From: a virus
Length of the DNA: 24,736 nt
Virus record (IMG/VR): IMGVR_UViG_3300013307_000047
Coordinates: 1-24,736 of that record
Direction: 5' to 3' (one strand)
In this document: positions 6,277 to 23,914 of the stretch, one piece after another
How the letters are laid out: each line of letters begins with the position of its first letter
How positions within the stretch are numbered: position 1 is the first letter of the stretch
Program-made: the position numbers and the translations under genes
Notes under the pieces: generated by a model
Database searches by the model: none
Told to the model about the DNA's origin: nothing
Seen by the model: only the letters and a program-made list of their open reading frames with translations

Positions 6277-8310
6277 ATGAGTGATACAGTTATTCGTGAT
6301 TTCTTAGTGTCCTTGGGTTTTTCTACAGACAATGACGGCGCTAGAAAAATGGGGGATGCCCTTAAAGGGGTTGAGCTCAAAGCAACACTACTGCATAAAA
6401 CATTATTGCTTCTTGCGACTGGTGCCGTTGTTGCTGTGGCTAAGACAGCTAGTGAGTTAGATAAGCTGTATTACTCATCTCAACGTATTGGCGCTTCTGC
6501 TTCAAATATCAGAGCATACGGTGATGCAATTTCTCAGATGGGTGGTAATTCCCAAAATGCTTTACAGTCGCTTGAGAATGTAGCGCAGAAGATGCGTAAT
6601 TCACCTGGTTATGAAGGCATGCTTACGGGAATGGGTGTTGCTACCCGTGACGGTAACGGCCAGTTACGTGACCGTGTAGAGGTCATGAAAGACCTTTCTA
6701 AAACAATGAAAGGTATGGATTACTACCAAGCCAATGCTTATGCAAGTTCTTTGGGTATCGATGAAAATACCCTTATGGCCATGCGTGATGATAAGTTCAT
6801 CAGCAACATGGAGAAATACCAGAAATTACGGCAGGACGTTGGTTTAACCGATGAACTAACTAAATCTGGTACAGAGTTCATGGTCCAGTTCCGTGATATT
6901 ACGATGACGACTAAGGCAATTACTGAAGTTGTTGTAATGACCGCAGGGCAGGCACTTATACCTATCCTTAAGATGATTAATAACTTTTTGCGAAGTGCTA
7001 TTGCTTGGTTCGCTGAACTAGATCCAAGGTTTAAAGCAATTCTGGCCACTGGATTAAAGTTTGCCTTACTCGCCGTCATCTTTGGTGGTTTTATTGGAAC
7101 GATTGCTAAATTGGCCTCAGTATTGCCAATGTTGAAAGGGCTACTTTTCCTGATCAAGTCGTTACGTTTGGCTTTCTTAGCTTCACCTATCGGTATTGTA
7201 TTAGCGCTTACCGCTGCTATTGCTGCATTGTGGGATGACTACCAAACTTGGAAAAATGGTGGAGAGAGCTTAATTGATTGGTCTAAATGGGAAGGTGGTA
7301 TTGAAACGGCGATTGCTCGTATTAAAGAATTGGCCGAGCTAATCAAAAACCTAAAAGATAAAACTGTAGAGTTTGTGACAAAGGCAATTGATGATCCAAC
7401 CGGTACCGCAAAAGAATCAGTTGCTGCAGTAACTGAAGCGGCTAAAACTGGTACTGCTGCTGTAGTGAATGCGGCTAAATCTACTGTTACTAATATTAAA
7501 AGCTCTGTTAGCACGGCTAAAAGCGGTAGAGTTTTACAATTATCTGAACAGGATATCGTGGCAATTATGAAAGTTGCTTCTACCGAAGTAGTTGGTTCAT
7601 TGAAGGGTAAGGACTTTGAGAATCAGGCGGCAGGTGTGGTTGATACAATTTTAAACCGGGTGGCTTCAGGAAAATATGGTGATGGCGTCAAAGGTGTTGT
7701 TAACCAGCGTTGGGCATTTTCTGACATTAATTCGCCTAGAAAAAGTGCTTATGGAAGTGTAGATAAAGTACCGATGTCTAGAGTATCTAAGCGTATGGAA
7801 AAGTTTGTACGTGAATATGTAGCTAAACGAGCAGCAGGGCAAGAGTCAATAGTTGGCGAGAATGTGTCTTATGCTAACCCTTATTATCTAAGTGAAGCGA
7901 GTAGTTCAACTAAGAAATGGGTAAGAGAAGTACAGAAACAGGCTAAAGAAACTGGTCAGATCTTTGGATCTGGTAAAGCAATACATGTACATGGCACACC
8001 CACAGCTGATAAGCACAAGATGCCTAAACCTTTTGCTATTACTTTGGGTGAGAACAGTGGTTTTGGAAATAACAACCTGTCGAATCTCAGTATTAAAAAT
8101 ATTGGGGCGCCAAATTCAAGTAATCCTTATAAGGATCAAATAAACTCGGCTAATACTAATTCGAAGAGTATTACTATTTACCAGTCTCATAAAACAGACA
8201 TGGTAATTAATGAGGCAGATAACCCAAAGGAAACAGCTAATTTGGTTAAACACCATAATGAAAATACTATGGTGCAAATGGCAAGGAATGCTAAAGGACT
8301 TATTGGTTAA
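6277..8310 (+). CDS. Tape measure protein with SleB-like hydrolase domain
   Basis: This 677-residue protein should set tail length and help penetrate the cell wall. The start chosen is ATG 6277 (MSDTVIRDFLVSLGF), 8 bases after the chaperone extension; an in-frame upstream start would overlap that gene. Residues 1-230 are helical with Mu-type tape measure features (LYYSSQRIGASASNIRAYGDAI). Residues 250-325 hold several hydrophobic, possibly membrane-inserting segments (LLAVIFGGFIGTIAKL, GIVLALTAAIAALW). Residues 420-590 resemble the SleB/Hydrolase_2 fold: a candidate catalytic Glu at about residue 437 (VASTEVVGS), then AAGVVDTILNRVASGKYGDG and QRWAFSDIN. The last 90 residues are Asn/Ser-rich. 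For a tape measure this is short, which implies a short tail. Confidence 0.82.
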   Translation: MSDTVIRDFLVSLGFSTDNDGARKMGDALKGVELKATLLHKTLLLLATGAVVAVAKTASELDKLYYSSQRIGASASNIRAYGDAISQMGGNSQNALQSLENVAQKMRNSPGYEGMLTGMGVATRDGNGQLRDRVEVMKDLSKTMKGMDYYQANAYASSLGIDENTLMAMRDDKFISNMEKYQKLRQDVGLTDELTKSGTEFMVQFRDITMTTKAITEVVVMTAGQALIPILKMINNFLRSAIAWFAELDPRFKAILATGLKFALLAVIFGGFIGTIAKLASVLPMLKGLLFLIKSLRLAFLASPIGIVLALTAAIAALWDDYQTWKNGGESLIDWSKWEGGIETAIARIKELAELIKNLKDKTVEFVTKAIDDPTGTAKESVAAVTEAAKTGTAAVVNAAKSTVTNIKSSVSTAKSGRVLQLSEQDIVAIMKVASTEVVGSLKGKDFENQAAGVVDTILNRVASGKYGDGVKGVVNQRWAFSDINSPRKSAYGSVDKVPMSRVSKRMEKFVREYVAKRAAGQESIVGENVSYANPYYLSEASSSTKKWVREVQKQAKETGQIFGSGKAIHVHGTPTADKHKMPKPFAITLGENSGFGNNNLSNLSIKNIGAPNSSNPYKDQINSANTNSKSITIYQSHKTDMVINEADNPKETANLVKHHNENTMVQMARNAKGLIG

Positions 8311-8650
8311 ACAATTCTTTTAAGAATGCAATGCGTTGTTTATACAGAATAGACTGGCAAGTTAAGTCATATTCAACGGTTGCTGGGCTTCCTTGGGTGT
8401 CTGCAACAACAAAATCACCGCATTGTTTTTCTTTAAAGTTTAACCATTGTTTTTGAGCATTATCTAACTCTTCTTTTGCTGAAGTGGTCTCATAAGCTCT
8501 TTTATAGGTTGCATTAAGTTGGTTTTTTAAGACTTTAACTTCTTGATTTAAGCACTTTTGAGCTTCAAATGATGTTTTGGTGTTTGAGCAATCTGCAAAA
8601 GCACTAATACTAAAAAATGAACTTAAAATTATTAAAAGTATTCTCTTCAT
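8300..8650 (-). CDS. Secreted DUF1311/LprI-type protein (possible lysozyme inhibitor)
   Basis: This 116-residue protein has a clear signal peptide (MKRILLIILSSFFSISAFA, cut near residue 19), so it should act in the periplasm. The mature part carries four cysteines and the DUF1311 signature, with Cys spacing ADC…QKC and LDNAQKQWLNFKEKQC. LprI of Mycobacterium, a member of this family, inhibits lysozyme. Here it could protect the lysogen from lysozyme or limit superinfecting-phage lysins. It is the only leftward gene inside the structural block and overlaps the tape measure stop tail to tail by 11 bases. It is therefore likely a moron expressed from the prophage. Function is inferred from the family. 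Confidence 0.78.
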   Translation of the reverse strand: MKRILLIILSSFFSISAFADCSNTKTSFEAQKCLNQEVKVLKNQLNATYKRAYETTSAKEELDNAQKQWLNFKEKQCGDFVVADTQGSPATVEYDLTCQSILYKQRIAFLKELFNQ

Positions 8651-19984: not shown

Positions 19985-21283
19985 TTAGCTTTTTATTATT
20001 AATAATTCATCAAACTTAAAAGGATTTCTGCTCAATTTATCCCGCGACATCGACCAGTTCCGACCAGGAATAAAACATGGTCCGACTCCTAATTTCTTCT
20101 TTCCAAACTTACTATGGATACCATCCATAGCCTGCATTAAACATTCCTTTTTCTCTATGTGTGCCAAGTCAGTGAGCAGGTCATATGTATGACCAACCTT
20201 GGGCTCTAGTCCTGTTAGTATTACGCCACATTTTTTATACCTAATGCCTTCTTTAAAGATATCTGACACCATTTTTACTGCTGCCCTTACGAAATCTGTT
20301 GCGCAATCTGTGGGTTCAGGAAATGCGCCAGTAATAGACTTATTATAAAAAGGGCTATTTGAGTCGAAAGGGTTTGACTGTACAAAAGCAATCATACATC
20401 CACATAGTAGCCCTTCATCACGTAGTCTTTTACAAGCATCTTGAGCATACATCGAGATAGCTTCTTTAAGATCATTCAGTTCTGTTACGCGGCCACCGAA
20501 AGACCTTGAAGCGACAATTTGTTTTTTTGATGGGGGAGTGTGCTCGATCTCAATGCATGAGATACCTTGTAATTCGTATATCGTCCTTGCCATCACAATT
20601 GAAAACTTTTTCTGCATCTCTCGAGGTTCAGCACAAGCTAGATCTAAAACATTGCTAATACCCATAGCTTGCAGCTTTTTTGAGTGCTTTCGGCCAACCC
20701 CCCAGACCTCACTTACATCTATTTGGGCAAAGTAATACTCTTTGTTGCAAGGGTCCATGTTCACGAGGTCGCAAACACCGTTAAACCCTTGATTTTTCTT
20801 AGCTATATGGTTGGATATTTTTGCTTCCGTCTTGCTGCGACCAATTCCTACGCACACGGGCAAACCAATCCATTTCCATATTTGCTGTCGCATTTGTTGC
20901 CCGACCTTTTCAAGATCGAAATTCTTTTCATAAGCAGAAAAATCAACAAAACACTCATCTATAGAGTATGGCTCAACTTCTTCATCAGTTACGTACGAGC
21001 TCAGAATCTTATGAAAACGTCTCGACATTTCTGCATACATTGCATAGTTGCTTGAAAGTACGATAACGCTATGCTTTTGAACTATGTCTTTAATTTGGAA
21101 TAACGGTACACCCATCTTTATATTTAAATTTTTCGACTCATTGCTACGCGCCACGGCGCATCCATCGTTATTGCTGAGCACAATAACGGGCTTATCATTC
21201 AAACTAGGATCAAAGACTCTCTCACATGAAACGTACATATTATTTACGTCAATCAAGAAAAAGACTTTGTTCTCATGTTTCAT
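19985..21283 (-). CDS. umuC: Error-prone DNA polymerase V catalytic subunit
   Basis: This 432-residue Y-family polymerase carries out translesion synthesis together with processed UmuD. Catalytic acids are visible: Asp12 in [14 protein letters not shown], and SIDECFVDF with Asp109 and Glu110. Further along are the [21 protein letters not shown] helix and the [12 protein letters not shown] helix-hairpin region. The little-finger domain ends in the C-terminal UmuC extension ([24 protein letters not shown]). Length is close to E. coli UmuC (about 420). The usual clamp-binding pentapeptide near residues 365-372 reads TYDLLTD, a weak match. Its ATG overlaps the umuD stop (ATGA), so it is coupled to umuD. 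Many Acinetobacter prophages and plasmids carry such operons. Confidence 0.93.
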
Positions 21284-21780
21284 GACTTATTTCTTATCAT
21301 TTTAATGATGCAGGTGACAACGCCCCAAATAAGCAGCTCTTGGCCTTCTTGTAGATAGATATTTTTATAATCTGGGTTTTCGGCTTTAAGCCATTGGCCT
21401 TTTTCATCAATCATCAGGCGCTTAACTGTAAAATCATTATCGATTAGTGCCACGACGATATCGCCGTGTTTAGCATCTAAGCTACGATCGACAATGAGCT
21501 CGTCATCAATGTCGATCCCTGCATTTAACATAGAAAGCGATGCTACTTTGACAATGAACGTTGCAGTTTCATTTTTTATTAGGTGCTCATTCATATCGAG
21601 CGCTTTGTCTATGTAATCTTGCGCTGGGCTGGGAAAGCCAGCGGAAATTTTTTCTAAAGCATAAGGGATAAGCATGTGAGTTGTTGGGACAACTTGCTTG
21701 AATAATAAGGCTTCAGATAAAACAGCGCCTTGAGTGAGGTACGGTTTTATATGGATGATGGATGGTGCAATTTCGCTCAT
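21280..21780 (-). CDS. umuD: UmuD-like S24 peptidase, polymerase V subunit
   Basis: This 167-residue protein starts at ATG 21780 ([12 protein letters not shown]), with GGGGA about 9 bases upstream. The frame is open to an ATG at 21810 and a TTG at 21816, but those lie within the palindrome just downstream of the predicted -10. The cleavage site is Ala47-Gly48 in [14 protein letters not shown]. Ser83 (SLSMLNAG) and Lys120 (FTVKRL) form the Ser-Lys dyad used in RecA-stimulated self-cleavage. About 47 residues precede the cut, against 24 in E. coli UmuD. The longer N-terminus could bind DNA, as described for Acinetobacter UmuDAb. It overlaps umuC by four bases. Confidence 0.88.
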
Positions 21781-21794
21781 AGAATATCCCCTAA

Positions 21795-21817
21795 CTTGAA
21801 TTTGTAACATATTCAAG
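21795..21817 (-). promoter_or_regulatory. Palindromic operator for the umuDC operon
   Basis: Arms CTTGAAT and ATTCAAG are perfect. The inner TGT-A-ACA is also symmetric, leaving one mismatched pair around the central base. It lies just after the -10 and across the likely transcription start, the position of a repressor site. Acinetobacter lacks LexA and uses the UmuDAb repressor at TTGAA/TTCAA palindromes, so this is a likely DNA-damage operator. Confidence 0.75.
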
Positions 21818-21927: not shown

Positions 21928-22563
21928 CTAATTCGCAGTTTTTTTTGGTTTGGGGAAGTAGTCAGCAGTAAATTCATCTAGCGGCATTTCAAAGAAAAAA
22001 CGAAATGCATCTTCTTTTTTACAGTTCAACCAGTCTTCTCGATATTCTTCAGGGATTACAATAATCGATCGCTTCTCATCTTCTGGCTTATGAAACTGCG
22101 ACATGAAAGGGTGGTTATCAGCATTGATAGTAAGCATAGACATCGATCTGACTTGCTGCCCATCGATCACAGTTGAATCGTAAATTGCAGCTACTGTAAA
22201 CGGCATGCCATCTTCTCTAAAAATTCCCCATCTTTCTGCTTTTCCATTTACGTATCTAGGCTCATAAATCTTTTCGACTGGTATTAGTGCAAATTGGCTT
22301 TTAGACCATGCGTGTCGGAAGCTCGGCTTTTTATCTACCGTTTCAGTTCTAGCGTTATACGTATACTTTGAGAATTTAAGGTCATGGTTCCATGGTGGAA
22401 TCATACCGAACTTAACTTGGCGCCATTCTATATGGCCATCTTTAGAAAAAATAAGAGGGCAGTCATAGCCGGGATAAACATCAGCTTTATACTCAAAAGT
22501 AGGTTCGAATAGATCTAGCAGATGCACCCGGTCTTTACTAATAGGCTCATAGTTTGCACACAT
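21928..22563 (-). CDS. SRAP/YedK-type abasic-site-binding protein
   Basis: This 211-residue protein belongs to the SOS response-associated peptidase (SRAP, YedK/HMCES) family, which crosslinks to abasic sites in single-stranded DNA and shields them. Cys2 is exposed after Met removal (MCANYEP). The other active-site residues are visible: Asn70 (YTYNARTET), Glu101 (IYEPRY) and His158 (MSQFHKPEDEKRS). Spacing is close to E. coli YedK. The family's frequent HxRMP is replaced by HKPED, a common variant. The ribosome binding site AAGGGGA is upstream of ATG 22563. It is co-directional with umuD, which lies about 150 bases downstream behind its own promoter. The two form a DNA-damage-tolerance group. 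Confidence 0.88.
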   Translation of the reverse strand: MCANYEPISKDRVHLLDLFEPTFEYKADVYPGYDCPLIFSKDGHIEWRQVKFGMIPPWNHDLKFSKYTYNARTETVDKKPSFRHAWSKSQFALIPVEKIYEPRYVNGKAERWGIFREDGMPFTVAAIYDSTVIDGQQVRSMSMLTINADNHPFMSQFHKPEDEKRSIIVIPEEYREDWLNCKKEDAFRFFFEMPLDEFTADYFPKPKKTAN

Positions 22564-23140: not shown

Positions 23141-23221
23141 ATATGATTTCTCCTTGATGAGTTTTTGTATAATTAGTTTAGGTCTTTTATTTGCGTCATT
23201 ATAAAACTAAATAGGACTATT

Positions 23222-23400
23222 TTATTGAGCCCAGTGGTCCACATGATCTGCCCACCATAACTTCGTTTCATTATTTAGCTTCGTATCAAGCTCATCACCA
23301 TATAATTATTCTTTAAACCCAATGACCAACCTGACTCTTTAAAGAATGGTTCACCATACTTAATTGTATGTTCGATATAAAAATAGACCCAATCTTTCAT
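23222..23400 (-). pseudogene. Frameshifted gene remnant
   Basis: From ATG 23400 the frame reads MKDWVYFYIEHTIKYGEPFF and on to LKNNYM, then stops at 23275 after unrelated residues. One frame over, the sequence continues YGDELDTKLNNETKLWWADH and ends at TAA 23222. The two halves make one plausible protein of about 59 residues if a single base was lost near 23292-23300. No ribosome binding site is evident. The family is not recognised; Trp-rich acidic small proteins like this include immunity proteins, but that is only resemblance. Confidence 0.5.
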
Positions 23401-23586
23401 TCGTAAATTCTCAATTATTCAACTTGCGATTTAATATTTTAGGGGCCAATTAATTAGGCCTACTTCTTACAATGTTAGCTCAATCTTACAAACTTTTTCT
23501 TCTGCTATTTAATTTGAGTCTGATTTTTAAAAGTTAGATATCTTTTTTGATCCAAGTGAACATAATTTAATCGGCAAAAATTCTTC

Positions 23587-23606
23587 TAGTACAAATGATC
23601 GTACTA
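23587..23606. repeat. Inverted repeat in the prophage-edge spacer
   Basis: TAGTAC and GTACTA are perfect 6-bp arms around an 8-base spacer. No gene or promoter is close enough to assign it. Confidence 0.3.
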
Positions 23607-23674
23607 AAAATGTTCAATGATTTTAGTTAAATACAGGTTACAAAGAGCTTTTAGGACAAAATTAAATAGGTTTT

Positions 23675-23737
23675 TTACGGTATGAATTATTGCGGTATCA
23701 GATTGTACTGGAAAAAATACCGTAAAGATTACGGTAA
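23675..23737. repeat. Cluster of four 9-bp repeats (TTACGGTAT-like)
   Basis: Copies are TTACGGTAT (23675-23683), TTGCGGTAT (23690-23698), inverted ATACCGTAA (23717-23725) and TTACGGTAA (23729-23737). The last two form a perfect palindrome with 8-bp arms TACCGTAA/TTACGGTA around AGA. Such clusters bind a protein cooperatively; next to a tRNA integration site, integrase arm-type or excisionase sites are the natural guess. Confidence 0.6.
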
Positions 23738-23837
23738 CTGTTGGAACGTTTTGGTACTTTATGACACTAATTAGAGTTTTTTATAGTAGTGATATCAATG
23801 GTTTCGGTAAGAATTGATACTTGCTGAAACTAAAAAT

Positions 23838-23914
23838 TGGTGCGCCCGGCGGGGATCGAACCCACGACCCCAGGTTTCGGAAACCTGTACTCTATCCAAC
23901 TGAGCTACGAGCGC
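23838..23914 (-). tRNA. tRNA-Arg, anticodon CCG
   Basis: Read on the - strand, the gene starts GCGCTCG and ends CGGGCGC plus A and the encoded CCA. All seven acceptor pairs form (one is T-G). The D-arm has AGCTCAGTTGGATAGAG, and the T-arm has GGTTCGATCCC. The anticodon stem CAGGT/ACCTG holds the loop TTCCGAA with anticodon CCG, which reads CGG as Arg. The 3' end faces the prophage, which fits integration into the tRNA 3' half with the gene kept intact. Confidence 0.95.

Follow-up and report, generated by a model that had tools for sequence, protein, structure and literature searches.

The attachment site (attP) of phage lambda combines a core and a host-factor site with two unequal arms, the int-proximal one having two sites and the opposite one several. 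At the E. coli tRNA-Arg gene argW, the KplE1 prophage relies on IntS, an integrase with two DNA-binding specificities (PMC2951348), and operators of the 186 Apl / P2 Cox excisionase type are att-located direct repeats with a spacing of roughly one helical turn (PMC7498355). Here we describe a repeat cluster beside a tRNA-Arg gene which, judging from sequence comparison, very probably represents the arm-type sites of a P4-type integrase in an Acinetobacter prophage.

The DNA analysed (24,736 nucleotides, hereafter the window) is an IMG/VR virus record carrying genes for capsid, tail sheath, baseplate, endolysin, UmuD/UmuC and SRAP, followed at its end by tRNA-Arg(CCG) and host DNA. The UmuC, UmuD and SRAP (SOS-associated peptidase) genes lie together near the prophage end (19985-21816 and 21928-22563), and an LprI-type lysozyme-inhibitor gene (8300-8650, minus strand) is found on the opposite strand within the tail gene cluster. 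A preliminary description had reported four copies of a 9-bp repeat in 23675-23737, two of them forming a palindrome, in otherwise empty DNA about 100 bases from a tRNA 3' end, and each of these points was borne out: the four copies occupy exactly these coordinates (Table 1), copies 3 and 4 are inverted around AGA (TACCGTAA-AGA-TTACGGTA), the 3' end of tRNA-Arg(CCG) at 23838 is 101 bp away, and no ORF of at least 60 aa is present in 23141-23838. Copies 1 and 3 also form a perfect inverted pair, of 10 nt with a 33-nt gap. Over the whole window, 14 matches with at most one mismatch to the TTACGGTAT-type repeat were counted versus 4.55 expected; four of them start within 55 bp, a span in which 1000 dinucleotide shuffles of the window never yielded more than two. 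A possible fifth copy had been proposed at 23802 (TTTCGGTAA), but relatives read TTTTGGTAA or TTTTGGGAA at that place, and we therefore rejected it as a conserved copy. The degenerate copy at 23705-23713, which lies exactly 12 bp from the 23717 copy and reads TACTGTAA in L011, L113 and L114, appears to be the better candidate for a fifth site.

Table 1. Positions of the repeat copies and of neighbouring features in the window
Feature	Sequence	Position	Strand	Remarks
Candidate arm-type site 1	TTACGGTAT	23675..23683	+	Conserved in L009, L010, L012 and L011
Candidate arm-type site 2	TTGCGGTAT	23690..23698	+	Sequence and relatives
Degenerate candidate arm-type site	GTACTGGAA	23705..23713	-	In register with the 23717 site, 12 bp apart
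Candidate arm-type site 3	TTACGGTAT	23717..23725	-	Sequence and relatives
Candidate arm-type site 4	TTACGGTAA	23729..23737	+	TTGCGGTAA in some relatives
Loose direct repeat, copy 1	GGTACTTTATGACACTAA	23753..23770	+	Conserved in relatives
IHF-like site	TATCAATGGTTTC	23793..23805	+	One mismatch to WATCAANNNNTTR; between core and cluster
Loose direct repeat, copy 2	GATACTTGCTGAAACTAA	23816..23833	+	Adjoins core
att core (crossover region)	TGGTGCGCCCGGCG	23838..23851		tRNA gene 3' end; alignment of attB, attP, attL and attR
tRNA-Arg(CCG), attB target		23838..23914	-	Intact at this prophage end
Prophage-specific P' arm region		23465..23837		Sister phages that have another integrase are homologous up to about 23464

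Since the cluster adjoins a host tRNA gene, it might consist of host DNA that carries the repeat by chance. DNA-level matches to Acinetobacter calcoaceticus and to further genomes of the genus begin at 23831-23838, the tRNA 3' end, and in six uninfected Acinetobacter genomes the tRNA is followed directly by a conserved ABC-transporter gene, the cluster being absent from these empty sites; a search of the same six genomes with the cluster segment returned no match. The finding that the preliminary description named as refuting, a repeat at this position in uninfected strains, was thus looked for and not made. Since homology to the host sets in at the tRNA 3' end and uninfected genomes lack the repeat at the place where host DNA would carry it, the repeat is phage DNA, and the host explanation, which we regard as scarcely credible, was rejected. 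Searches of plasmid and phage records gave matches to the host flank and to cargo, with no annotated case of the cluster.

The same repeat is also present at the other prophage end, as shown by G001, a complete sister prophage (IMG/VR record, 43.8 kb) whose left end reads host DNA, core TGGTGCGCCCGGCG, about 60 bp, ATACCGTATAACTTACCGTAA and then a 416-aa integrase. The 21-mer ATACCGTATAACTTACCGTAA, found in seven contigs, holds two more copies 12 bp apart, so that this search, suggested in the preliminary description, located two copies between core and integrase. The G001 integrase contains Arm-DNA-bind_3 (PF13356, E=2.2e-25, above the Pfam cut-off), Phage_int_M and Phage_integrase domains, and matches the solved arm domains 3JU0 and 3JTZ in sequence. 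The integrase gene of the window's own phage lies outside the window and is inferred from G001 and L027. Across the 83 bp that they share (23769-23851), L027 and the window are 100% identical, also at two bases where G001 differs, and L027 is therefore probably the integrase end of the same phage. Alignment of attB, attP, attL and attR placed the exchange at a single 14-bp core, and three contigs (L011, L027 and L033) contain attP with P' arm, core and P arm contiguous. The repeat motif differs from the core-type sequence and is absent from attB.

A pattern scan of viral contigs recovered the three-site pattern, with identical 51-bp spacing, in four IMG/VR contigs: in L009, L010 and L012 the cluster is followed by the core or by tRNA-Arg, as in the window, while L011 is the attP junction contig. 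Two further cases of the cluster were found in whole genomes (G074 and G161). Conservation in prophages at the same tRNA, another check that had been proposed, was thus observed, with the cluster recurring at the same place and with the same spacing in IMG/VR contigs. In L114 (G161), the start of another phage integrase directly follows the core, which suggests tandem prophages in the same tRNA-Arg.

Two of the earlier alternatives, plasmid-type iterons and lysogeny-repressor operators, would fit clustered short repeats in non-coding DNA. Neither a replication gene nor a repressor gene adjoins the cluster, and its distribution is the wrong one for such elements, the repeats going with an integrase clade and with the att core on each of its sides; we consider this explanation highly improbable.

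To follow the motif across integrases, 176 Acinetobacter genomes were searched for the integrase, relatives of which occurred in 65; the DNA downstream of 34 integrases was then taken, second core copies were located and the two arms were compared. Nearly all relatives carried 12-bp-spaced repeats upstream of int, with a motif set by the integrase subgroup (ACGGTA, AGCAGTAC, TTACAGTA or GTAACGC, and TTGTCGG, TTGTTGG or GTAGTAA for more distant integrases). Some 20 related elements, residing in genes for tRNA-Arg, -Ser or -Glu, had 12-bp-spaced motif copies at both ends; their motifs were ACGGTA, GCGTTAC, AGCAGTAC, TTGTCGG and TTGTTGG, and the two ends usually agreed within one element, as in G072 (GCGTTAcaggtt/GCGTTA), G090 (GCGTTAcagttt/GCGTTA) and G026 (TTGTCGGTATATTTGTCGGTAT). 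Agreement between the arms reached a mean of 24.7 for matched pairs versus 20.6 (SD 0.70) for permuted ones (0/20000), a figure that is uncorrected for kinship and so is not a strict probability. For the ten elements outside the ACGGTA class, arm permutation gave 1/20000, again uncorrected for kinship; within the large ACGGTA class the test is uninformative on individual arm pairs. Among the exceptions, G077 showed ACAGTA on one arm versus ACGGTA on the other, arm agreement was weak in G031, and in G116 and G171 the second core copy found was flanked at the distal arm by a different dyad, GGATAC, which is probably that of a tandem neighbour. Outside this set, five other viral contigs (L057, L059, L060, L061 and L065), whose integrases are only 35-38% identical, had CGGTA repeats with 12-bp spacing just upstream of int.

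These comparisons bear on whether the repeats might instead be sites of an excisionase (recombination directionality factor), namely a 57-aa HTH_17/AlpA-like protein. The gene for this protein adjoins int in G001, and the 12-bp dyads resemble excisionase operators with their direct repeats about one helical turn apart (PMC7498355). The motif is nevertheless present on both arms, in mixed orientation, in nearly all well-bounded elements; G033 and G040 encode HTH_17 homologues 46-47% identical to that of G001, yet their motif is AGCAGTAC, and subgroup-2 elements have the ACGGTA motif but no detected HTH_17 homologue. A different AlpA-like protein is encoded at the far end in G073 and G160. Because HTH_17 homologues and motif are distributed differently, the arm motif appears to follow the integrase rather than the putative excisionase. 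Moreover, the loose repeat pair at 23753 and 23816, nearer the core, would be a more natural excisionase candidate and possibly represents such sites. The excisionase alternative, also raised in the preliminary description, is in our judgement unlikely for the cluster itself.

The repeats could also serve mainly as an operator for Int or another regulator at the int promoter, with recombination independent of them. In most relatives the sites are directly upstream of the int start codon, and in KplE1, P4 and PAI I536 Int is known to repress its own gene at a promoter overlapping att. In the window's lineage, however, some 40 kb of the prophage separate int from the cluster, whose exact spacing is still kept in four other contigs; the second site set at the far prophage end also argues against an operator-only role, which we regard as very unlikely. 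Arm and operator roles can coexist, since circularisation brings cluster and int to within about 190 bp of each other, with the core in between.

The arm-type reading put forward in the preliminary description is thus favoured by several observations: the cluster is phage DNA, recurs across the core beside int, flanks the core in attP and co-varies with the integrase. Under the mechanism that we propose, a temperate tailed phage would integrate in the tRNA-Arg(CCG) gene of Acinetobacter, and the cluster would form the multi-site arm (P') of its attachment site. A P4-type tyrosine integrase would grip the cluster's four (probably five) ACGGTA sites through the N-terminal Arm-DNA-bind_3 domain, and likewise two sites on the other arm, next to int, with its catalytic domain acting at the core (23838-23851). 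The approximately 100 bp between core and cluster would be folded by a bending protein of the host, probably IHF, and this binding and bending would serve integration and excision.

From the cluster towards the host, the window contains the loose repeat (23753), an IHF-like site (23793), the second loose copy (23816), the core and the tRNA. The IHF-like site is only suggestive of a host-factor site; in all arms together, 61 IHF-like sites were counted versus 34.8 +/- 4.9 expected, for a weak consensus. Every close relative keeps the loose direct repeat, GRTACTTNNTGAMACTAA, in the stretch that separates the core from the arm cluster.

In an integrase subgroup 60-66% identical, the four-site arrangement is found directly upstream of int and adjoins the tRNA, the matching elements sharing 76-81% DNA identity with the window's cluster. 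The window's lineage differs in having int on the two-site arm, at the other end from where it usually lies; a change of sides relative to att, by the phage body or by int alone, is the simplest explanation. Positions 23141-23464 of the window are non-coding and 79-82% identical to sister phages, similarity stopping near 23464; the sister phages G005, G006 and G008, whose cargo is similar, match the window in the neighbouring genes as far as about 23464, where a different integrase (450-455 aa) follows directly and the cluster is missing, from which we infer that the att arm arrived with a module exchange. A tblastn search of 23141-23640 with the sister phages' integrases for an integrase remnant gave chance matches only.

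A broader proposal, which we rate as likely as not, is that Arm-DNA-bind_3 integrases of Acinetobacter share one arm plan, which other viral contigs with more distant integrases show on the int side only: each arm bears a 12-bp direct dyad, and inverted copies are added beside int. The motif, of 6-9 bp, would drift together on the two arms, in concert with the N-domain, as a natural recognition code, and in the window's lineage the phage body would have been flipped, int reading from the two-site arm. Elements of this kind are already known, but comparison shows that, from one related integrase to another, the sequence of the repeat changes jointly at the two ends of the prophage. In the literature searched, much subscription literature being outside its scope, we found no description of this repeat motif, nor of Acinetobacter arm sites of this kind. 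What was a vague repeat is thereby placed in a defined attachment site that has a core, an arm on each side and a likely integrase. For a specialist, the useful part could be how motif and integrase co-vary on both arms: matched arms and integrases in several motif classes form a data set for asking which arm-domain residues read which bases, and the int-proximal motif can be used to locate the distal ends of prophages and islands.

Compared with described systems, the G001 integrase resembles the P4-type and genomic-island DUF4102 (Arm-DNA-bind_3) integrases of the IntSXT subgroup of tyrosine recombinases in its N-terminal domain and tRNA target (PMC8138268); for P4-type DUF4102 integrases, we found no published arm-site motif of this form in the papers searched. 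Unlike 186 Apl / P2 Cox operators, the repeats occur on each arm and in either orientation, and they change with the integrase. As with the KplE1 arm-type sites, the candidate sites lie beside the 3' end of a tRNA-Arg gene, and the KplE1 arm sites overlap the int promoter as do those of the window's relatives (PMC2951348). In contrast, the P' sites of KplE1 share TAAA and those described here ACGGTA, and the multi-site arm of the window's lineage is at the end away from int. The overall layout resembles that of lambda attP, with core, possible host-factor site, multi-site arm and two-site arm, but the integrase subgroup and the motif are different, the target is a tRNA gene, and the sites form a 12-bp dyad plus inverted copies.
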